Under the pieces are notes generated by a model. The model did not search any database. It saw only the letters and a program-made list of their open reading frames with translations, and was not told where the DNA came from. The position numbers and the translations under genes were made by a program. From contig JAKSLB010000005.1 in NCBI GenBank assembly GCA_024401435.1, positions 124,001 through 188,000 of the forward strand: a stretch of DNA of 64,000 nt, in the 5' to 3' direction. This document shows positions 3,414 to 61,372 of this stretch, in pieces. The DNA comes from Paludibacteraceae bacterium. GTDB taxonomy: Bacteria; Bacteroidota; Bacteroidia; Bacteroidales; Paludibacteraceae. Within the stretch, counting starts at the first letter, position 1. Each line of letters opens with the position of its first letter.

Positions 3414-5609
3414 ATGGATATGTCTAGTTACGGATGGAACGGCTCATCGTATGTTCGATGGAATGATTTTAATCGTGAAAATAAAAAGAGGGTGTTGATT
3501 ATTGTGTCAATAATTGTGTTGGCATTATTAGCATTGGGAATTTATTGGGCAAAGTTTTATCATAAAGTTTCCTATTATGAGGACGTTGTTTTTCATTATG
3601 AATGGCCAGAAGGAATAAATAAAATATCCAAATCAGAAGCAAAAAAAAGAAATGTTTCCTATATGTTGGAAAAGGATGGCGCATTGAGTGCTCATTGGAC
3701 TAAAGTATCTGCTGTAGATGGAAAATTACAGATGAACAAGTTTAATACGTTCAATACCTTTAATAAAGTTTTTTTAGATCCTGTTATTTCGATTGGAGAT
3801 AAACATTCTTCCCGTTTGACGGCACGTTTGAATGATGTTTGTTGTTGGGAATTTGTGGCAGACGAGAATAATAAATATGTAGTACAACAGAAAGCATACG
3901 ATGATACAGGATGTTTGGTATATGATTTTTCATATACGAGACACTTAAATAATACCTATAATGGTTTATATACGAGTCCGGTCGGAATACCTATTCGATC
4001 TTCTCAACATGGAGCTGTGATTGTAAAGATCACTTTGGATGAAAGAGGGTATCGTTCATTTGTGGAATTCTTTGATGCATGGGGAAATCGTAGTTGTGAT
4101 AAAAATCGAGTTTATGCCTATAAATTTGAGTATGACAAAGACGGACTTCTTAGAAGGAAAGGTGCTGTAAATGAAAAAGGAGATTATGTGTATGATACAC
4201 AATTCGTTTCCTCTGTTAAAAATCAATATGAAAATGGACGTTTGATATCACGTACCTATTTGAATCCAGAAGGATTGCCAACGAAAAACAAGCAAGGTTT
4301 TACGGTGGAAAAAATAACTTATGACAAATATGGTAGACTATCTTCATTAGAGTATGAGGGAGAAGATGGAACCCCTGCGACTATTTTGAATTTTGATGAT
4401 ATGTGTCATCGAATTGAGTATGAGTATGATGAAAATGGATATCTTATTAAATATTTATGTAAAGATGAGTCGGGTAATGTTGTTGGAGAGAGAGGTTATG
4501 GTATAAGTGCAGAAGGTAATACTTGTGAGTGTAATGCAAGTAATACAATGTCTGTAAAACCTTTCTATAATGAGCAGAATCGGTTGGCTTCTCTTTGGGG
4601 ATGTAGAAACGATAGTTTAGTGGCTGATGAAAACGGAGTTGCTGGGGTTGTTTTTGAATACGATGACAGGGATAATTTGGTGAAGAAATCATATTTAAAT
4701 GTCGATAAAAAACCAGCATCTATTGATGGTAATGTATATTCAATAGAATATCAATATGATGATTTCAACAACTGTACAAGAATGATTTATAAAGATAGTG
4801 TGGGAGAACCAGTGAAAAACATGCTCCAAATCGCATATGCGTTTGATTCTTATGGTAATGTGACATCGATTGAATGTTTTTCAGGTGATGGTAAAAAACC
4901 GGTAAATGGAACAGGTGGATGGCAAAAATGTGAGTATGTATATGATGGAAATAGATTTTTGCAGGAAGTTGTCTATTATGATGTTTCTGGTTACGTTATA
5001 TATTCACCTAAAAAGAAATATGCAATAGAACGTTTGATGAATGATGGGAATGGTCGTGTTTTATCTCGTTACTATTTAGATGATAATAGAGTAAGAATGA
5101 ACGCTGATGGGTATTCTTGGGATACGTTGATATACGAAGGTAATAACTTGGTAAGAGAATTTGCATATGATTTAAAATCGAATCCTGTTTTCCGTACGGA
5201 ATATAAATACGATCCGTGTCAGCGTTTGATAGAAGAAGCGTATTTTGATGCTAAAGGAAATGCATATGTGAAAAATGGCTATGCAAAAAAACAGGTGGAG
5301 TATCAAAGAGGAGGAAAGACAATCACATCTTATTTGGCTGCCGATGGGAAGGTCTTGAGAAAAGATTCTGTTTCAACGGAACAAGAGGTATTTAAGACAA
5401 GTATGATGGACAATCAGGTTAAATATAAAACGGTAAAGACTCATGATTGGAAATATGAAGGAGAAATGAAAAACGGAGAGCCATATGGAGATGGTCGTTT
5501 CACATGGTTATCAACAGGTTTCTTCATAGAAGGGTCTTTTAAAGGTTGGAATACAATGATTAATTCATGGAATTGTAATGAAGCATATTGGAATGAAAAG
5601 CATGATTAA
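3414..5609 (+). CDS. Membrane-anchored YD-like repeat protein with C-terminal MORN repeat
   Basis: The 731-residue protein has no cleavable signal. A single membrane anchor at about residues 27-45 (VLIIVSIIVLALLALGIYW) leaves a large extracytoplasmic part. From about 190 to 640 it has many short beta-hairpin repeats of the YD type, such as YDKYGRLSSLEY, YDENGYLIKYL and YDDRDNLVKKSY, which resemble RHS repeats but are more diverged. Many repeats end in a polar turn (DESGNVV, DAKGNAY). At about 680-710 there is a MORN-like motif (YEGEMKNGEPYGDGRFTW). No toxin domain, RHS core protease motif or PAAR domain follows, so this is not a polymorphic toxin. It overlaps the next gene by a few bases, arguing for an operon with the GLUG-repeat surface protein. 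Function unknown. Confidence 0.75.
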   Translation: MDMSSYGWNGSSYVRWNDFNRENKKRVLIIVSIIVLALLALGIYWAKFYHKVSYYEDVVFHYEWPEGINKISKSEAKKRNVSYMLEKDGALSAHWTKVSAVDGKLQMNKFNTFNTFNKVFLDPVISIGDKHSSRLTARLNDVCCWEFVADENNKYVVQQKAYDDTGCLVYDFSYTRHLNNTYNGLYTSPVGIPIRSSQHGAVIVKITLDERGYRSFVEFFDAWGNRSCDKNRVYAYKFEYDKDGLLRRKGAVNEKGDYVYDTQFVSSVKNQYENGRLISRTYLNPEGLPTKNKQGFTVEKITYDKYGRLSSLEYEGEDGTPATILNFDDMCHRIEYEYDENGYLIKYLCKDESGNVVGERGYGISAEGNTCECNASNTMSVKPFYNEQNRLASLWGCRNDSLVADENGVAGVVFEYDDRDNLVKKSYLNVDKKPASIDGNVYSIEYQYDDFNNCTRMIYKDSVGEPVKNMLQIAYAFDSYGNVTSIECFSGDGKKPVNGTGGWQKCEYVYDGNRFLQEVVYYDVSGYVIYSPKKKYAIERLMNDGNGRVLSRYYLDDNRVRMNADGYSWDTLIYEGNNLVREFAYDLKSNPVFRTEYKYDPCQRLIEEAYFDAKGNAYVKNGYAKKQVEYQRGGKTITSYLAADGKVLRKDSVSTEQEVFKTSMMDNQVKYKTVKTHDWKYEGEMKNGEPYGDGRFTWLSTGFFIEGSFKGWNTMINSWNCNEAYWNEKHD

Positions 5610-8600
5610 ACATATTATATGTTGCATGTTGCTCTTGTGTGGAGTAAATGTAATGGCAACGAATTGGACGGATGTTGTTGTGGAAAAACCGGATTCCTAC
5701 ATTGAATGGAACGATACAATTTTCTTGAATGATAGTCGTGCCGTAGCATGGGTTGCGTCTGTTAGTAATGGTATCAATGGAGCTGATTCTTCTACTTTCT
5801 TGGGGAAAACCCTCTTTTTGACACGTGATGTTAATATGTCGGAACACGAGTTTTCTAAATTTATATCTACGTTTGATGGAGTCTTTGATGGTAATAATCA
5901 TAGTATAACAAGTATGGTTGATTCTAGTTGTTCTTTTTGTAGGGTCAATAGAGGAGAAATCAAAAATCTAAAAAGGAATGGGGGCGTTGTCGGTCAATGG
6001 ATTGAACGATATTCTTATCGTTCTTGTGCTATGTTTGCTGTGGAGAATTACGGAAAGGTAAGAAATTGTAGTGCAACTTATACTGAATTATCATATATTT
6101 CATCAATTGCCATAACAGTTGGTTGTATGGTGGCTAATAATTATGGTGTGGTTGACGGATGTAAAATAGCAGGTAAGTGGATTGTTTCTGGAAATATACC
6201 AGAAAATAGTTGCTTTGGAGGTATTGTTGCTCGCAATTATGGAGTTGTGAAAAATTGTGTAAATAAAGCTATTATAGATGGATATTGTTATGCGACAGGT
6301 GGTATTGTCGCTGAAAATCAAGGCGAAATCTTTAATTGTTCCAATGTTGGAGTAGTGAGGGGTGGAGCAACATATAGTGGTGGCCTTGTTGGTATCATGA
6401 TAGGAGAGGATGCTGAATTGAAAAATAGTTATAGCCTCGGTAAACAAGATGGGAATGGATTGGTTGGTATGATGAAGTCTGGTGCAGTATACAATTGTTA
6501 TGCGACAACGAGTAAATCATTCTTTGGTGAAGATAGTTATACAGATCAGAATTCATACATTTATGCATGTATTGATAGTGTTTCTGCGATACCGACTGGA
6601 TGTTATGGATTTCAAGGTAATGGTAGGAAATGTATACTTGTAGATAAAATTTATGACACTTTCGATATGCCGACAGCATTGAATTCATGGGTGGATATGC
6701 AACCTTCAGAAGGACTTGCGAAGTGGAAACTTGATACAGAATATGAAAATGAAGGATATCCTATGTTGGTTATACCAGAGTATGTTGAAGAAAAGGAATA
6801 TGAGAAACCAACATTACGGTGGGTAGATGTCGTAAAAGAACGTCCAGAAACTTATGTTGAGAATGGAAATGATATTTATATCCTTGACAATCGTTCATTA
6901 GCATGGCTCATATCTGTAATGAATGGTTTGAATGGACAACAACAGAATAATTTGTTCGGTAAAAATATTATGTTGATGTCAGATATTAACATGGGTAAAT
7001 ATAAATGGACACCAATAAAGAATTTCCAAGCAACGTTAGATGGAACTGGTAAAAATATAAAGGGATTATTTGTTGAGGATACTACAATTAATGCTGGTTT
7101 CGTTGTTACGAATAATGGAAAGATACAGGATGTGAATTTTAAGGACGCGTCTATGTATGTATATACGAAGAGTAATGTCTTAGCTGGTATGGTGGCTGCT
7201 AACAATAATGGTGAAATCTATAATGTTAAGTGTAATGGTCAAATTCACTTGGATGGAGTCTCTGAAAATTGTAATGCACTTTATTTAGGAGGATTGGCTG
7301 GTCTTAATAACGGAACGATAAGTACATGTAAATCTCAGGGTTCTGTATATTTGGATTATTGGGATTTCAAAGAACATTTGACGGCAGAAAATTATGTTGG
7401 TGGAATTGTGGGAGAAAACCTTGGTATAGTTGATGCATGTATAAATGAAGCAGAGGTGACAGGCTATTGTTATGCGTCAGGTGGCGTTGCTGGTTGTATA
7501 GAAGGAAATAAGGCAAAAGTAATCAATTGTGCTAATAGAGGATTTGTTTCAATGTCGGGTTCACCTTCACCATCATATGGTGGTGGCTTGGTTGGATATA
7601 TGAAGGGTCCTGGTATTTTGGCGAATTCGTATAATACTGGATATGTCGATGTGATGAGTGTAGTGGGTTATCAAAAAGCAGGTACAATCAGTAATTGTTA
7701 CAAGACTTGTACACAAACTATTATGTCGGAAGATGGCAATCCGTCTTATAATTATATTTATTCTTGTAAGGATAGTGTTGATGTATTGGGTATGGAGACC
7801 TCTCAATTTAAGAAAGATGGAACTTCTTTTACATTGACAAACTCGGTATATGGAACGACAGATTTTGTTGAGGCTTTGAATAGTTGGGTGGATAATCAAA
7901 ATAGTTCGTCATATATGAAATGGACTACAGATAAAAAGAAAGAGAATAAGGGATATCCTATCTTGAGAGTATCTTATAAGAAGGATACAACGTTCTATGT
8001 GTGTCCAGACATAGATTATTATGGTAATATTTTCACGTCTGCTGATGATTCTACAACCAAATCCATATTATGGAATGATACTCTTTATGAAAAGGTTAAG
8101 ATTATTTTAAATGCGAACTTTGATGATATAACTATAAAACGGAAAGATTCCTTCTATGTGGGTGAAATTGTGACATTATCATTGATTCCGTCTTGTACGA
8201 ATACTGTATGGAAATTAGATGATGGAACAATACGATATGGAAGTACAGTTGCTTTCCCTGTCGATATCACATATAAAAATGGTCATGTGGTTAAAGTATC
8301 TATGACACAAAATGGATGTTCTCATCAAATGTTTGACACATTGAAAGCTGCAAAGACGGGATATGATACGGTTCTTTACGTTTGTCCTGAAACTGTTTAT
8401 GAGGGGAATAACATTTTCACTATAGAAGATAATGGATCCGTTCAGACTTTAAATTGGACAGATTCAACTACTATTGTCGCTAAGATAGTTGTTAAAGCCG
8501 ATTATAATAAGATTCATTATACTGCGCCTGAATTCTTCTGCGCAAATGAAATGTTGACGATCTCAATGTCGGGTGCTAGTAATTATTTATGGATTGTGAA

Positions 8601-36797: not shown

Positions 36798-39221
36798 TTA
36801 TAAATTTTCATCGGTTAATAAATCATTATAGTCGTCACTGTTCTTCACAGTTACCTCATAACTAAATTTTATTTCTTTACGTTCTCCTGGTGCAAGTTTT
36901 AGATCCCAACTCAATTTTCCGCTCGTTTCATCCAGCTTGGCACCTCCGTTGTCTATGAGTTCCACTTTTATCTCATCATTGGATGCAACGGGTATTTGAT
37001 CTTCTAAGGTGATGTCAATACTAACTTCTTTGTTGTTTTTAACGACAATCATCCACTCTCGTTTGATTTTGTTTTTTGTGTTGATCAGATTCTTTTTCTG
37101 CTTTGTGACTTGAAGTTTCCTTTCTATCCCAACATTTTTTTCTACACCTAATGAAAAATGCAAAGTGTCTTCTATGGCAAGTGGGGTCCAAGACGATTCT
37201 CCAACATATGTGTTATCAGAGAAAATACGTAACTTTCCTGCTAAAAGATCATACTTCTTCCAATCTGGTATTTCTGCCAACATATATACGTTAGGGGTGA
37301 TTTTAGGCACTGCAAAATAAGAGTAACGCACTGGAATATCTTCTTGTACTAACGTGGCTTCATGTTCAACTCCGTCTGAAGGGATGGAGTTTAGTCCTGC
37401 TGCAGTTCCTGTGTAATCTTGTAGATTGGCAAAAACAGATTGATATAGAGAAGAACCTGTTTTCGAATTTCTTTTTGTTGTCACTAAAATAACACCGTTT
37501 GCTGCTCGTGAGCCATAAATAGATGTCGATGATGCATCATTTATAACTTCCATAGAGATGATGTCATTTGGATCAATTGATTCTAATGGATTGTCATTCG
37601 TACCACCACCAATTGGCATACCATCAACAACATATAATGGTTGAGTGTTACCTGTTAATGAAGAAGTACCACGAATGCTAACCTTTGATCTAGCACCTGG
37701 TTGTCCTGATGATGCATTTGCTTGAACACCTGATGAGCGTCCTGCTAACGCTTGGTCAACTGAAACTCTATTCTTTGTTCTAGCAACTCCGTATCCAGTT
37801 TCAACCTCAATATCAGAAAAGAACTGTATGTCTTCTGACAACATAATTTTACCTAAATTGGTTTTCGTATTAGTTGAAACCTTTATCGTTTTATTTTTGA
37901 AACCCATATTTGAAAATTCCAAGACATCACCATTGTCGGCGAAGATGCTGAAGTTTCCGTCAAAGTCTGAAACTACACCTTTGGTTGTTCCTTTAATGAC
38001 AACATCTACACCAGGAACAGGGTCATTGTTTGAATCGACGATGGTTCCAGTTAAATAAATTGATCCATTTTTGCTTTGTGCATATATCGTCGAAGCATCA
38101 TCTTCTAAGTTGATGTTGAAAAGATTTACATTGTTATCAGTGACTTTTCTATGAGCTCCTTTGTGCCCAGAATGAGAATATCTGATGGTCGAAAATGCAG
38201 GTACTAAAAGTTGATAAAATCCGGAAGCGTCAGTTTCTGTTGAAATATTACCTGCGGAAATGTATGTGCCTTCCAAAGCACCATTGAGGTCACGCACTAC
38301 TCCCATTACTTTTACCATATTGTTTTCTGTGGTTTCCTCGTTGTCTTGATATTGATTTTGATAAGGTAATGTATATCGTTTTAATTCTGGTTTTTTACTG
38401 TTGACAGAAGGATTTGATTTTGTAACAATCATTTTAATATTGTTCCAATCTTCTTTTGATTTTTGAGAGACAAATACTTTTTTATTTACATTCAGTGTTG
38501 AAGTTTTCTCTGAAACACGAAGTTCATAAAAAGGTTTCCATTCTGCCTCTTTGATAATATATTTAATGGAAATCTCAGATTCTGCTGGAGTGGGAGAGAC
38601 AAGAGAAATGTATAATGCCGCTTGAGGGTTTGAACTACGATTGTCGAGTAACGTTAGTTCTTGGTTTATTGTGGATTTCTCTTCCTCGTAATTAGACAAG
38701 ATACGATGATTTTTTAATTGCATATCAGCAATTTCATTGAGATCTTTTCTTAAAAAGGAGGCAATTCCACTTAATTGTTCTGCATTGAATCCTTTGGAAC
38801 CTCCAATATTATTGTTTGAAATAACAAAACCTTTTTCTGTGTTTAGCGTACCATTGAATGATTTTATGAGTTTTAACGAGTCGTTTAACACAGATAATCG
38901 AGAGACTAATTTATCATTGATTTTTGCAATAGAATCTCTGTTCGGGATTTCTATGTCCACGTTAACTTTTCCCAGTGTGATGTCTGTGTTGGTAATACCT
39001 ACTTGTATGCTTTTTTGATTCAAATTCGGACTAATCATAGGAATTTTTACCTCTGTTATACCTGCTGGTATTTTGACTCGTGCTGTTCTTTCTACTAGTG
39101 CACCTTGCTTGTAGATGGTAACTTGATTTATGTGTGAATGAATGGTTAAAGTGTCTGCGTGAACACAGATATTCAAACACCAAAGCAAGATTAGAGTTAG
39201 AATGTTTTTTGTCTTTATCAT
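36798..39221 (-). CDS. DUF4139 protein with an internal SusC-type TonB plug domain
   Basis: The 807-residue protein has a signal peptide (cut after CVHA), DUF4140 segment (HINQVTIYKQGALVERTARV), helical region and DUF4139 beta domain split around a long insert. The insert contains a first CarboxypepD_reg-like repeat (about 300-355), a second (TGTIVDSNNDPVPGVDVVIK, about 388-465), and a SusC/RagA-type plug (about 466-590). The plug has VETGYGVARTKNRVSVDQAL, GQPGARSKVSIRGTSSL, QPLYVVDGMP and SSTSIYGSRAANGVILVTT. After it the DUF4139 domain resumes (VEHEATLVQEDIPVRYSYFA to the end). There is no TonB-dependent barrel. The plug is normally the cork of an outer-membrane importer, so here it must serve a different role, perhaps protein binding. 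Paralogue of the next gene downstream. Confidence 0.88.
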   Translation of the reverse strand: MIKTKNILTLILLWCLNICVHADTLTIHSHINQVTIYKQGALVERTARVKIPAGITEVKIPMISPNLNQKSIQVGITNTDITLGKVNVDIEIPNRDSIAKINDKLVSRLSVLNDSLKLIKSFNGTLNTEKGFVISNNNIGGSKGFNAEQLSGIASFLRKDLNEIADMQLKNHRILSNYEEEKSTINQELTLLDNRSSNPQAALYISLVSPTPAESEISIKYIIKEAEWKPFYELRVSEKTSTLNVNKKVFVSQKSKEDWNNIKMIVTKSNPSVNSKKPELKRYTLPYQNQYQDNEETTENNMVKVMGVVRDLNGALEGTYISAGNISTETDASGFYQLLVPAFSTIRYSHSGHKGAHRKVTDNNVNLFNINLEDDASTIYAQSKNGSIYLTGTIVDSNNDPVPGVDVVIKGTTKGVVSDFDGNFSIFADNGDVLEFSNMGFKNKTIKVSTNTKTNLGKIMLSEDIQFFSDIEVETGYGVARTKNRVSVDQALAGRSSGVQANASSGQPGARSKVSIRGTSSLTGNTQPLYVVDGMPIGGGTNDNPLESIDPNDIISMEVINDASSTSIYGSRAANGVILVTTKRNSKTGSSLYQSVFANLQDYTGTAAGLNSIPSDGVEHEATLVQEDIPVRYSYFAVPKITPNVYMLAEIPDWKKYDLLAGKLRIFSDNTYVGESSWTPLAIEDTLHFSLGVEKNVGIERKLQVTKQKKNLINTKNKIKREWMIVVKNNKEVSIDITLEDQIPVASNDEIKVELIDNGGAKLDETSGKLSWDLKLAPGERKEIKFSYEVTVKNSDDYNDLLTDENL

Positions 39222-39235
39222 ATTTAATGGTTAAA

Positions 39236-42232
39236 TTATTTCTTCTCAAAAAATTGGATAATCTCTTTCATCAAATTCAATCTTTCTTTTTCGCTTTCGA
39301 TACTTTCAAATGGAATGGAGGAGATGACCGTCTTGTATCTGCCATTATATCCTACTGTTGCAGGTAGATTACTTCCTTCAAATGAATGAATCACTTTCGA
39401 ACCGTTGGAGATGTCGAGTGCATCAGGTGACTCTACTGCGTATTGTTTTGAATTAGGTATATTACAGTAGTGATAATATTTTTGTTTGAACATTTTCCAT
39501 GGTGCAAAGTAGTTCGATAGCAGTCCTTTCGTTTTTAGTTTGCTTTCTCCTAATTTGTATTTTAGAACTCGCTCTGCAAATTGAATGGCGTCTGTATCAC
39601 AAGAGTCTCGTTCGTACAAATCTGATGCAACATATGCACCATTTACGTATATGTTGCCTTGTTGCGTCATAAGATATCTGCGAATAGAACGTTGCATACT
39701 TGGAGGGAAAAGTTGGTAACGAGTTTCTGAACCAACTTGAGTGCTTTTTTCTTCTCCTAAGATTAGATCAATGAAATTATAACCTCTTAATCTAAAATGT
39801 CCTTCAGTTATTACTTCATCACTACAGGAAACGAAAGAATAGCCTGCAGCTAAGATGGCTTTCCCATGTATATAAGGAAAGTCGAAGGTGTTCCCTGCAA
39901 TGATATCATTTTCAAACATTCCATAACATGCTCCATGTCCTGGATTGGCGTTTGTGCGAAATTTATTCCTTTTGTTATAAGAATATTGACTACCAGTGAA
40001 ACTAAGGTCATATTTGTCAGGAACGCCTTGATCTAATTTGTCTAAAAAACCAGAATATTCAGGGCTGTCAAACCATTCAGGAGCAGAAACTCGATGGAAT
40101 CCATTGATGATTAGTGCCATTTTGGTTGTGTGGGGTACATATCCTGCAGCTAATATTTCAGATGGGAAACTTTCACCACCTTCATTAACGGCGGTTACTT
40201 TAAATCGATATATTTTTTGGGGCTCTAGGGTGATTTGTGTGTAAGGGGTACGAACAATCTCTCCATTGTTCCATCCTCCATCATCAGTAGCGGTATATAG
40301 TATATAATAGTCTGGTGAGGCAGTCGATTCAAGGCTGTCCTCTTGCGGTTCCCAACTTAAATGAACCACATTGTTCTCTTCGTTGAAAAATTCTGTGCTG
40401 AATTTTTTTACGGGTAAGGGTTGCACGACATAATCGCGATCTTGTTGATAACATAAAAACTTCAGAATTCCTTTGTAAATAGCACGACAGACTAGAAATT
40501 TAAAATGCGGATCTAGTCCGTAGCGCATATCGGTAAAGTTTTGATGTGATAACAATTCTAGTAAGAATGTGGGCGTTTCTGGAACTCTTGCTTCATAATA
40601 AGATGCATCGGTTAATTTCCTCCTTGTCCAGTCGGGACGAAAAGTGCTACGAATGTCATTGACAATTTGTGTTTGTATAATATCCGCTAAATCACGAGAG
40701 ATAATTCTACGCTGACCATTCGTATAGTAGCGTGATCCGTTACTTTCAGACATATAGATGGCCATAGTTCCAATAATGCTGTCATTGAATACTTGTCCTG
40801 CATCCGTATGGAATCCCATAGTCATTTCGATGGGAATATTCTTTCCTTCCGTATTGGGAGATTTTGAGGAACCTCCGATTAAGGTATTCACCCAATGACC
40901 ACGACACATATAGTCATCTTTGTAATCATCTTTGTAATCATTCCTATTGTATACAGAATCAGGATATCCTGCCCATTGAAGCCAATAACGAGCACCTTCT
41001 AGGTAACGAGGTTTGTTGCTGTAGATGATGGAGTCTTGTTGATTAATTCGTCCAATGTTACCATATCCACCTCCAAATCGTACAGCGTCTGCTGTGATAA
41101 TATTGTTGTTGCTTTTACTCTTGTTGGATAACTCCACCCGACCAATATCGGGATTGGTTCCTTTCTTAAATGTGAAGGTGCCGAGATAGATCCACGTGTT
41201 ACCTCCCATTTTTTGATTCACAACAAATTCAGTATTCCCTCCTGCATGATAAACAATGTAATGTGCATCAGTCGCACTATTGGGGTAGGAGTGATAAGAT
41301 ATGTAAACTGCATATTCTCCAGTTTCTGGGATCTCAGGAGTCCAGTTGGCATACCCCATACCTTCTTTACTGGTTCTGATTTTCCTATAAGTACCATAGC
41401 AGAAAGGATTTTCACCTTCACGATACAATTCTCTTGGATTGCCAAAACCTGTGGTGTCGCCTCTTCTCCATTTGCTTGTTTTGTCGTTACATTCATCGTA
41501 AAAGAACGTCTCTCGATCATCATTGTCAACAATTACTTCGTTCAATTGAGTATCACGTTCCCTTGGTAGCATAACGTAAGCACCTGCATTTTCTAACATG
41601 GGAACAAGATAAGGAAGCACATAACCTAATGTGTATGTGTCTTCTGTGACTTGAAATAGGTGAGGCCGTTGCCAAGTCCAATCGTTCTCTTTCTTTTCAT
41701 AATACCATCCGTGACTAGGCCATAATGCGATATTGTTATTGAGAAGTCCTTGTGAAGGTTGCGTTTTCTTGCTAAGATTGCTAACTATTGGCAATTCATA
41801 TAGACGATGTTTCTCAAGACGACCTTTGTCTGGTTTTATGTATTCTCGATATATATTAGGAATAAGATCAGCTATCTCGTATCCATTGATGAACATTTCT
41901 ATTTTATAATTGTCGTACTCTTTATCTAAATGATTTTTCAATGAATCTTTGAGGGATGCTACATTATATTCGCGGAAGGGTATGCTTTCCAAATATTTAT
42001 TGGCATAGATGCGAACCGTCTTTTTTGATTTGAGTACTATGACACTATCAAAACCAATCTTGTTTTGTTTTAAGATGGGATTTTGTTCTTGAATATGATA
42101 GATGATTGATTTAAACAGAGAATCTTGCAGAATAACTGATTGACCAGCATGCACATGAGTCATACTAAGGGAAAACCCTATTATGGTTAAACATATTATG
42201 CGAAAAATTGAATGCTGTTTCACGATGCCCAT
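39236..42232 (-). CDS. Large secreted N-acetylmuramoyl-L-alanine amidase with golvesin-like and FN3 domains
   Basis: The 998-residue protein has a signal peptide (cut near VHAGQ). It opens with a mixed region, then an Amidase_3 domain that is interrupted: GYVLPYLVPMLENAGAYVMLPRERDT (seen as LVPMLENAGAYVMLPRERDT) begins it, and MTMGFHTDAG and EARVPETPTFLLELLSHQNFTD complete it with zinc-binding and catalytic His/Glu positions. Between them sits a golvesin C-terminal-like beta domain (WTPEIPETGEYAVYISYHSY, about 300-395). A fibronectin type III domain (about 655-715) follows, then a C-terminal alpha/beta domain (MALIINGFHRVSAPEWF ... ILAAGYSFVSCSDE). Database copies are sometimes named xanthan lyase, which the sequence does not support. 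It is probably an outer peptidoglycan amidase. It is the first gene after tRNA-Leu on this strand. Confidence 0.8.
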   Translation of the reverse strand: MGIVKQHSIFRIICLTIIGFSLSMTHVHAGQSVILQDSLFKSIIYHIQEQNPILKQNKIGFDSVIVLKSKKTVRIYANKYLESIPFREYNVASLKDSLKNHLDKEYDNYKIEMFINGYEIADLIPNIYREYIKPDKGRLEKHRLYELPIVSNLSKKTQPSQGLLNNNIALWPSHGWYYEKKENDWTWQRPHLFQVTEDTYTLGYVLPYLVPMLENAGAYVMLPRERDTQLNEVIVDNDDRETFFYDECNDKTSKWRRGDTTGFGNPRELYREGENPFCYGTYRKIRTSKEGMGYANWTPEIPETGEYAVYISYHSYPNSATDAHYIVYHAGGNTEFVVNQKMGGNTWIYLGTFTFKKGTNPDIGRVELSNKSKSNNNIITADAVRFGGGYGNIGRINQQDSIIYSNKPRYLEGARYWLQWAGYPDSVYNRNDYKDDYKDDYMCRGHWVNTLIGGSSKSPNTEGKNIPIEMTMGFHTDAGQVFNDSIIGTMAIYMSESNGSRYYTNGQRRIISRDLADIIQTQIVNDIRSTFRPDWTRRKLTDASYYEARVPETPTFLLELLSHQNFTDMRYGLDPHFKFLVCRAIYKGILKFLCYQQDRDYVVQPLPVKKFSTEFFNEENNVVHLSWEPQEDSLESTASPDYYILYTATDDGGWNNGEIVRTPYTQITLEPQKIYRFKVTAVNEGGESFPSEILAAGYVPHTTKMALIINGFHRVSAPEWFDSPEYSGFLDKLDQGVPDKYDLSFTGSQYSYNKRNKFRTNANPGHGACYGMFENDIIAGNTFDFPYIHGKAILAAGYSFVSCSDEVITEGHFRLRGYNFIDLILGEEKSTQVGSETRYQLFPPSMQRSIRRYLMTQQGNIYVNGAYVASDLYERDSCDTDAIQFAERVLKYKLGESKLKTKGLLSNYFAPWKMFKQKYYHYCNIPNSKQYAVESPDALDISNGSKVIHSFEGSNLPATVGYNGRYKTVISSIPFESIESEKERLNLMKEIIQFFEKK
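40914..40941 (-). repeat. 12-bp tandem duplication in the amidase gene
   Basis: TCATCTTTGTAA occurs twice in tandem (40914-40925, 40926-40937) plus four bases of a third copy. Read on the coding strand it encodes the repeat DYKDDYKDDY, an in-frame slippage product in the loop before MCRGHWVN. Confidence 0.75.
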
Positions 42233-59278: not shown

Positions 59279-61372
59279 ATGAATATTTATAAGTGCGCCA
59301 TTTTGTGTGTGGCGTTAAATGTTGTGTCTGTATGTATGGCACAATCGGATACTGTCTATTTGCGTAATGAAAATTTCGATGATGTTGAACTGGATGAAGT
59401 TGTAGTTACATCTAATCGAGAAGAAACAAAAAAACATTTAGCACCTTCTGTCGTTCAAGTATTGAATAGCAGAAAGTTGGAGCTCACTCGTTCTTGTGTT
59501 GTGGCTGATGCTTTGCCTTTTCAGGCTGGCGTTCGTGTGGAGGATGATTGCCAAAATTGTGGTTATAAACAAGCTCGTATTAATGGATTGGATGGACATT
59601 ATTCTCAGATTTTGATAAATTCACATCCTATGTTTTCTGCTGTCAGTAATTTGTATGGCTTGGAACAGATACCGGCTAATATGATTGGAAGGGTAGAAGT
59701 GATGCGTGGTGGTGGGTCTGCTTTGTATGGTGCTTCTGCTGTTGGCGGTACAATTAATATTATTACAAAAGAACCTGAACGAAATAGTGCGGATGTTTCT
59801 CATACATTTTCTGCTTTAGGAAATTCGTCTTTTGACAATAATACGACATTGAATGCATCTGTTTTGGCACCAGATCAAAAAGCAGGTATATCTATTTTTG
59901 CTCAAAATCGTATCCGTCAAGGTTATTCTTATTATGATGATGGTTATACAACTTTACCTCAGTTGAAAACACAATCTGTTGGAACTAACCTATATTTTAA
60001 AACGTCATCTTATTCAAAACTATCTTTTGATTATTATTTGTTGAAGGACGATCGTAGGGGTGGTAATGATTTTGATTCTATTCCTGAAAAATCAAATATC
60101 GCAGAGATTGCACAACATACGATTCATAATGGAACTGCTAATTATTATTGGAGTTCACAAAATGGGAAGTATTATTTTAATCTGTATTCTGGTATCGCTT
60201 ATGTTAATAGAAATAGTTATACTGGTGGATATGGAACCGATGAAGATCCTGATTTAAATGCAGATAGATATTATAGCAAAACAAACGATTTGACATGGGC
60301 GCTGGGTGGTTTGTACCGTTATAAAATGGATACTTGTTGGTTCTTGCCTGCAGATTTGACTGTTGGTGGTGAATATACAGGAGACCATATTGATGATTAT
60401 GCAATTGGTTTTGATACTCGAGAAAAACAACGCACAGGTATTGGAAGTCTATATGCTCAGAATGAGTGGAAGAATCATCGTTGGGGATTTTTGTTAGGAT
60501 TGCGTATGGATAAACATAATTTGATTGACCATCCTATTTTCTCACCTCGTGTGAATTTGCGTTATAGTCCTAATGAAAAGTGGTCTTTCCGTGCGACCTA
60601 TTCGGATGGATTCCGTGCTCCACAGATTTTCGATGAGGATTTGCACATAGAGATGGCTGCTGGTAATCGATTCAAAGTATATTTGGCGGATGATTTGAAG
60701 GAAGAACGAAGTCATAGTTATACGATTTCCTCTGATTTAAATACTTCTTTTGGTAAGACTCGTTTCGAATGGATGATGGAAGGTTTCTTGACAGATTTGA
60801 ATGACATATTTGCGGAACGAGAAACAGGAATCATAGACGAACAGGGGAATGAGAAAATAGAAAGATATAATGGTAGTGGTGCTAAAGTTATGGGTGTTAC
60901 AACGGAACTTAGAACGCTTTTCCCTAAATATGTGACGATGGAATTGAGCTTTACTGCTCAGAAAAGTGAGTACGATGAATTGGAACATTGGAGTGATGAG
61001 GCTCCTGATGTGAAAAGAATGTTCCGTTCTCCTAACTTGTATGGTTATATGGATGTGGATGTTACACCTGTCAAAAATTTCACGATTGGTCTTTCTGGAA
61101 CATATACGGGTAGTATGTTGGTTCAGCATTTGGCTGGTTCTGGAACAGATGTGGATGTGGCGGTTGAAACTCCTAATTTTTGGGATTTTAATGTGAAACT
61201 AAATTATTCGTTCTTAATTCAATGCGTGAAGGTTGACGTTTCGACTGGTGTGAAAAATCTATTCAATTCATTTCAAAAAGATTTGGATAGAGGAGCTGAG
61301 CGTGATGGCGCTTATATTTATGGTCCATCTTTGCCACGTAACTTTTTTGCAGGTCTTTCAATTCACTTATAG
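59279..61372 (+). CDS. TonB-dependent outer-membrane receptor
   Basis: The 697-residue protein has a signal peptide (cut after CMA). A TonB-box-like acidic start (VELDEVVVTSNREETKKH) leads into the plug (about 45-165): QVLNSRKLELTRSCVVADAL, VRVEDDCQNCGYKQARINGL, SQILINSHPMFS, PANMIGRVEVMRGGGSALYG and GGTINIITKEP. A 22-strand barrel follows, ending LPRNFFAGLSIHL. The CQNCGY element in the plug is shared by a Bacteroidota group of receptors near BtuB/FecA-like proteins; the ligand (metal chelate, haem or corrinoid) cannot be told. The nearby His/Cys-rich protein favours a metal-containing ligand, by inference. Confidence 0.9.
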   Translation: MNIYKCAILCVALNVVSVCMAQSDTVYLRNENFDDVELDEVVVTSNREETKKHLAPSVVQVLNSRKLELTRSCVVADALPFQAGVRVEDDCQNCGYKQARINGLDGHYSQILINSHPMFSAVSNLYGLEQIPANMIGRVEVMRGGGSALYGASAVGGTINIITKEPERNSADVSHTFSALGNSSFDNNTTLNASVLAPDQKAGISIFAQNRIRQGYSYYDDGYTTLPQLKTQSVGTNLYFKTSSYSKLSFDYYLLKDDRRGGNDFDSIPEKSNIAEIAQHTIHNGTANYYWSSQNGKYYFNLYSGIAYVNRNSYTGGYGTDEDPDLNADRYYSKTNDLTWALGGLYRYKMDTCWFLPADLTVGGEYTGDHIDDYAIGFDTREKQRTGIGSLYAQNEWKNHRWGFLLGLRMDKHNLIDHPIFSPRVNLRYSPNEKWSFRATYSDGFRAPQIFDEDLHIEMAAGNRFKVYLADDLKEERSHSYTISSDLNTSFGKTRFEWMMEGFLTDLNDIFAERETGIIDEQGNEKIERYNGSGAKVMGVTTELRTLFPKYVTMELSFTAQKSEYDELEHWSDEAPDVKRMFRSPNLYGYMDVDVTPVKNFTIGLSGTYTGSMLVQHLAGSGTDVDVAVETPNFWDFNVKLNYSFLIQCVKVDVSTGVKNLFNSFQKDLDRGAERDGAYIYGPSLPRNFFAGLSIHL

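Follow-up and report, generated by a model that had tools for sequence, protein, structure and literature searches.

The window, a stretch of 64,000 nucleotides from a Paludibacteraceae genome (G000), carries on its reverse strand one uninterrupted open reading frame, identified by ORF calling, for a protein of 807 residues (P0001, Table 1). A Sec-type signal peptide, seen by eye, suggests that P0001 is a periplasmic protein. In Pfam searches it shows the domain order of the MuiA family, DUF4140 followed by DUF4139, and both P0001 and its neighbour P0002 exceed the curated cut-off of the NCBIfam MuiA model (TIGR02231; 241.1 and 250.4 bits, cut-off 112.6). The DUF4139 match extends over residues 218–791 (E 1e-41) and is interrupted. 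CarbopepD_reg_2 matches two stretches, the better one at residues 390–464 (3e-21), and Plug (PF07715) matches residues 484–577 (3e-16) over positions 21–107 of the 107-position profile. No barrel family was found in P0001 by Pfam, and the C-terminal half of DUF4139 comes after the plug. The first-pass annotation had described two CarboxypepD_reg-like domains inside DUF4139 and a SusC-type plug, without a barrel, between the two DUF4139 halves; the domain search of the full protein bears this out, including the match of the plug segment to the Plug profile. Its description of the plug as complete does not hold, as the first 20 of the 107 Pfam positions are missing.

Table 1. Features of the MuiA-like gene pair, in coordinates of the window.
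Feature	Coordinates	Strand	Basis or remark
MuiA-like protein with SusC module, P0001, 807 aa	36798..39221	-	ORF, Pfam/NCBIfam
Sec-type signal peptide, residues 1-22	39156..39221	-	Cleavage after VHA, no lipobox, by eye
DUF4140, residues 34-132	38826..39122	-	Pfam, E 2.2e-12
DUF4139, first half of the split domain, residues 218-290	38352..38570	-	Pfam; boundary from comparison with relatives
reg1, CarboxypepD_reg-like, native to the MuiA pair, residues 300-380	38082..38324	-	Common to P0002
reg2, SusC N-terminal extension (NTE, PF13715), residues 390-464	37830..38054	-	Pfam
Ton-box-like strand DIEVETG, residues 470-476	37794..37814	-	Alignment, by motif only
SusC-type plug, residues 484-584, first 20 Pfam positions absent	37470..37772	-	Pfam, alignment
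DUF4139, second half, residues 606-791	36849..37406	-	Pfam
Plug-less MuiA paralogue, P0002, 631 aa	34916..36811	-	Downstream, 14 bp overlap with P0001

The whole scaffold of P0001 is that of the MuiA family (TIGR02231; DUF4140 plus DUF4139), from which it differs by a SusC module in the middle of DUF4139. With the SusC/RagA transporters (TIGR04056), P0001 shares the order of NTE, Ton-box-like strand and plug as well as the TIGR04057 signature (53.8 bits, cut-off 46.2), whereas it lacks their barrel and stays below the family cut-off (200.7 bits against 368.25; best stretch, profile positions 3–208 of 981). The best solved relative is RagA (6sli), matched by residues 391–587. An assembly error or a frame that joins two genes is unlikely because the reading frame is single, the insert DNA is 77% and not 100% identical to the SusC gene of the same genome, and a tandem pair with a plug insert is present in 14 further genomes.

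P0002 is 37% and 49% identical to P0001 in two blocks; in Pfam it gives a single weak reg match and none to Plug. The tandem pair, led by the plug gene, occurs in G000 as well as in 14 relatives; in the relative G012, contig ends truncate both genes. The neighbourhoods of the pairs differ. The nearest named relatives are metagenome-assembled genomes (MAGs) from ruminant stomach labelled Paludibacteraceae or Bacteroidales. We dropped the gene neighbourhood as a functional clue because, of the 11 loci listed, only those of G000, G002, G003 and G004 have the amidase-like, GT and DUF4922 neighbours; G014 is alignable across this neighbourhood. In the window, an ORF of 998 aa with Golvesin_C and fn3 domains and a weak match to Amidase_3 (39236–42232, reverse strand) ends 14 bases upstream of the plug gene and is possibly part of the same operon. 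Elsewhere in the window (59279–61372, forward strand), an ORF of 697 aa has a Plug match, a Ton-box-like start (ELDEVVVTS) and the appearance of an ordinary TonB-dependent receptor. A Prevotellaceae MAG carries a tandem MuiA pair in the opposite order, in which the plug-less gene precedes the plug gene (L255:2819–4417 and 4549–6525, forward strand). A role in anti-phage defence was rejected, since P0001, P0002 and P0003 gave no PADLOC match at E up to 0.01, as was a plasmid-borne origin: P0002 finds eight plasmid records, every one below 60% identity.

Passages of PMC7782687 give the order of the SusC N-terminus as NTE, Ton box and plug, with DEVVVTG as the Ton box; in the same passages the NTE is proposed to confer TonB specificity, its deletion leads to a dominant-negative growth phenotype, and lid-closed SusCD transporters without plug density are described from cryo-EM. 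Background on SusCD biogenesis is found in parts of PMC12611786. The insert of P0001 contains the same elements in the same order: an NTE (PF13715), a Ton box recognized by motif only, and a plug (PF07715) with 20 of 107 positions missing. On this shared order, we read reg2, DIEVETG and the plug together as one SusC N-terminal module and not as three separate domains. The module resembles the SusC encoded in the same genome (G000:C128:122763–125897) in each part. The NTE is 54% identical to that of its own SusC, compared with 24–49% for the 14 other SusCs compared, the counterpart of DIEVETG in the alignment is EIVVETG, and the plug is 79% identical at the protein level; over the whole insert the protein identity is 60.9%. 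In contrast, reg1 (residues 300–380) is also found in the plug-less P0002 and is thus native to the MuiA pair. The earlier idea of a domain captured from SusC by another protein therefore stands with a corrected extent, the foreign part being reg2, Ton box and plug, and reg1 belonging to the host protein. The single SusC module, the match to the SusCs of the lineage and the overlapping plug-less paralogue are all points absent from the first-pass annotation.

The loops of the module differ in length from those of SusC. In comparisons of the 15 plug-bearing first genes with the SusC of the same genome, which are comparisons among related sequences, the loop after VDGxP is shorter in 13 and of the same length in G004 and G014, the two most recent copies. 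The linker from Ton box to plug is likewise shorter in 13 of the 15, four of which have no Ton box. The loop that runs from SGVQV to IRG is shorter in three, longer in two and equal in ten. In transporters, plug loops of this kind face the substrate.

We then compared the ancestry of the insert with that of its scaffold. The 15 plug-bearing first genes, a family defined by its core and not by its insert, form one clade on the core trees (SH-aLRT 99; 100/99 on a second tree). A single clade of MuiA inserts is rejected on a tree of NTE plus plug (AU p 2.9e-39), which comprises 10 MuiA and 15 SusC rows after the five inserts without NTE were left out, and on a plug-only tree of 15 MuiA and 15 SusC rows (p 6.9e-4). 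One ancient capture that was inherited vertically is thereby rejected for the NTE-plus-plug inserts of the family. Well-supported branches force five changes between MuiA and SusC labels in the first tree and four in the second. In the NTE-plus-plug tree, the inserts of G018, G034 and G020 are each joined to the SusC from the genome that encodes them (99/98, 100/98 and 98/96), and the window insert falls with the four SusCs of its clade (98/97).

The identities agree with the trees. When each genus or deep clade is represented once, the identity of the NTE is 58% with its own SusC and 35% with the others, a value reached by 1 of 120 permutations, the lowest count that the test allows. For the plug, the identities are 75% with its own SusC and 66% with the others (1 of 720, again the lowest count). 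The native reg1, used as a control, shows no such excess: 22 against 23% (96 of 120 permutations as high), or 23.2 against 23.3% when G019 is included (419 of 720). For G034, the identity of the NTE with its own SusC is 80%, and none of the 14 others exceeds 46%. Among 21 genomes, the best DNA match of the window insert outside itself is the SusC gene of G000, at 77% over 297 bp within the plug and 77% over a second block of 167 bp (241 bits); the best MuiA orthologue scores lower (71%, 122 bits). Thus the inserts of the family lie nearer to the SusCs of their lineage and the native parts do not.

The tracking is by lineage and not strictly by genome. In a 15 × 15 matrix of plugs, the own SusC is the top match in six genomes (G000, G001, G002, G018, G019 and G034) and is beaten in nine (G003, G004, G005, G007, G010, G011, G012, G014 and G020), where the better match is mostly a SusC from the same genus or family. 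The SusC plugs of G003, G004 and G014 are identical, whereas their MuiA plugs differ, and the plugs of G014 and G004 are nearest to the SusC of G002 (91 and 88%), with only 79 and 81% to their own. These results indicate that the insert follows SusC at the level of the lineage, with some copying across species. That the insert evolves by following the SusCs of the lineage, while the core is inherited as one clade, is the new finding of this work.

Between closely related species, the plug behaves as a cassette that recombines. The genes of G003 and G014 are 94–100% identical in DNA outside the plug and its borders and only 58.6–63.6% identical over residues 511–567. The reverse is seen for G004 and G014, with 84–94% over the N- and C-terminal backbone and 96.6–99.2% over residues 511–567; reg1 is 95–100% identical between these two, which shows that reg1 moves too. 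Between G003 and G014, dS is 0.50 in the plug, compared with 0.11 in reg1 and 0.03 in the N- and C-terminal cores, and the difference between plug and core points to import rather than point mutation. The dN/dS values, which are rough on recombinant sequence, are 0.24–0.65 for the plug (seven pairs), 0.78–0.82 for the NTE (three pairs) and 0–0.21 for the cores; the NTE values are also expected under relaxed constraint. A whole pair seems to have moved between the distant species G002 and G003, where it is 94–99% identical except in reg1 and plug (75 and 84%) and the flanks are 55–81% identical. The border of this segment is sharp upstream and fades over about 600 bases downstream, and for this one case a metagenome chimera is possible. 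At loci L064, L065, L066 and L072, the tandem pair appears to have passed between species as a unit of about 4 kb.

The first-pass annotation had proposed a survey of Bacteroidota, and the survey shows that the fusion is not peculiar to P0001 and that plug–MuiA fusions recur in the phylum. At a threshold of E 0.001, DUF4139 is detected in 36 of 61 relatives and in 134 of 395 genomes drawn from the phylum. Local profiles sorted 169 distinct MuiA ORFs into 71 without an insert, 63 with reg only, 16 with plug only and 19 with both. The resulting 35 plug-bearing ORFs of 169 are not a prevalence, because the loci were chosen partly for a high DUF4139 score and long frames and included 80 named loci, the best of 118 confirmed stretches; the window genes are also counted twice in this set, whole and as cut in L002. 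In a separate alignment (A2) of P0001, P0002 and 57 of the 90 relatives counted, all 59 rows match both DUF4140 and DUF4139 in Pfam, and a plug is called in 17 by Pfam and 19 by the local profiles. Mapping plug presence onto an insert-free core tree gave at least nine changes, with gains and losses not told apart. This tree was built by a quick method from 150 of the 169 rows, with short, near-identical and L002 rows left out. On it, the plug-bearing protein of the Flavobacterium-like G117 is nested among plug-less rows, named Flavobacterium species included.

The match to SusC is repeated in distant lineages, though not in all. Among the matches listed from ten genomes, the plug of G117 is 64% identical to its own SusC, and the next best by score reaches 46%. 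In the Edaphocola-like G077, the plug and its own SusC share 84% identity; among the near-full matches listed from five other genomes, none exceeds 59%. In Flavobacteriia, by comparison, the module of G194 shows no preference among the matches listed (own SusC 51%, others 50–52%), its best listed match being the MuiA protein of G364 at 62%. Also among the matches listed, the plug of G286 is 50–51% identical to its own SusC and 53% to another, and its NTE shows a slight own excess (59 against 53%). Thus rewriting from SusC is repeated in two distant lineages and absent from one clade of Flavobacteriia, where a single ancient vertical capture would fit G194 and G364 and, largely, G286.

SusC modules without a barrel are also present on other scaffolds. 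In the Flavobacterium-like G317, an ORF of the alpha-2-macroglobulin (A2M) family (L264:37–3231, reverse strand) has CarbopepD_reg_2 and Plug directly before the A2M domain, so that the two domains are spliced into an unrelated protein as in P0001, the scaffold being different. G077 encodes a VWA/YfbK protein (L321:1939–4623, reverse strand) with an N-terminal membrane segment, seen by eye, and a nearly complete series of NTE, Ton box and plug. The gene adjoins an ECF sigma gene (L321:4580–5131, reverse strand), and the protein looks like an anti-sigma-type sensor. It differs from P0001 in the near-completeness of the module, the transmembrane segment and the anti-sigma-like position. Its module shares 152 of 205 positions with the SusC to which the MuiA plug of G077 gives its best match, and since both modules match this one protein, two unrelated proteins of G077 resemble the module of a single SusC. 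Plug-like motifs, which Pfam does not call as plugs, also end two BlaR1-type M56 peptidases, for example FGEAGANGVIEIET in L295:970–2580 (reverse strand) and YGDKGKDGVIIIET in L296:112–1689 (forward strand). A protein of 305 aa with one membrane segment by eye (L298:106–1020, forward strand) has a plug-like end, which Pfam Plug matches only at E 0.07.

Given that the insert is copied from SusC genes, we considered what it might do there. In the reading that we favour, and that we hold to be plausible though somewhat short of probable, MuiA presents a refreshed mimic of the SusC plug that probably engages the SusC barrel or the handlers of the SusC N-terminal module. The periplasmic MuiA/DUF4139 scaffold would display the N-terminal module of its own-lineage SusC in a loop between the two DUF4139 halves; the scaffold is inherited as one clade, and the insert has been rewritten several times from SusC genes. 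Selection would keep the insert SusC-like, as it must be accepted by a partner that is fitted to that SusC. A partner fitted to the SusC plug, and above all the barrel, is suggested because the copies stay near the SusCs of the lineage and because the plug is retained in every one of the 15 family-clade genes, five of which are without the NTE. Outside this clade the carriers were picked for having a plug, and constant retention would be circular there. The SusC barrel would be the most likely partner, with the mimic capping or testing barrels whose plug is out or not yet in, and the plug-less paralogue would probably form the other half of a hetero-complex. Of the docking partners proposed in the first-pass annotation, a SusC barrel, SusD or TonB, the SusC match favours SusC or its handlers.

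A wider version of this idea, which we regard as unlikely at present, is that envelope sensors or guards of Bacteroidota carry a copy of the module of the resident SusC, which is refreshed and enters, or reports on, SusC barrels that lack their plug. The carriers would be the MuiA pairs followed here, the macroglobulin and the VWA protein beside the ECF sigma gene. A comparable arrangement is known from plant NLR receptors with integrated decoy domains, in which the receptor carries a copy of a domain of another protein as bait or sensor. Kingdom, biology and evidence differ from those of P0001, and the likeness is an analogy only.

Selection may not be needed at all. The insert could sit in an idle, permissive loop where homology to SusC drives gene conversion and the frame is kept for the C-terminal half, and such neutral concerted evolution would agree with the higher dN/dS of the module than of the N and C cores (0.24–0.82 against 0–0.21), with inserts gained or lost more than once at a single site, and with a SusC match by lineage rather than strictly by genome. 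We nevertheless consider it rather unlikely, as the motifs IRG, LYVVDG and YGSRAxNGV are still present in copies whose identity to SusC is only about 60%, dN/dS remains below 1, the plug is present and similar to its own SusC in lineages as distant as G117 and G077, and similar modules occur in the A2M and VWA proteins.

Alternatively, the functional part might be a hook for TonB/ExbBD, the NTE and Ton box allowing MuiA to be pulled or to titrate TonB away from SusC, with the plug as a passenger. Ton-box-like motifs are present in G018 (EEVVVVGYG), G034 (DEIVVAGYG) and G286 (DEVVVTGYS), the strongest match to an own SusC lies in the NTE, and TonB specificity is the role proposed for the NTE in the passages of PMC7782687 cited above. 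However, the NTE and Ton box are missing from G002, G003, G004 and G014, where the plug is kept, and no Ton box is seen in the MuiA proteins of G077 and G117, which carry a plug alone. This makes this explanation quite improbable. A recognition surface or decoy under diversifying selection, for instance against exploiters of SusC plugs, with alleles swapped between species, could account for the apparent species swap of the whole pair between G002 and G003 and for the plug allele that G004 and G014 share inside different backbones, but it is very unlikely for a protein whose signal peptide suggests a periplasmic location and that matches no PADLOC family, and the comparison behind it covers four species from MAG data.

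In the open PMC literature, we found neither a description of MuiA proteins with a plug or of copying from SusC to MuiA nor a paper on the function of the MuiA/DUF4139 family. If the copying is under selection, its evolutionary tracking would point to a SusC partner, either the barrel or the machinery of the N-terminal module, and would provide a first handle on the function of this family. It would also bear on where the plug is located during transport by SusC and on the purpose of the NTE. For annotation, the MuiA proteins carry a warning that a match to the plug does not imply a transporter.
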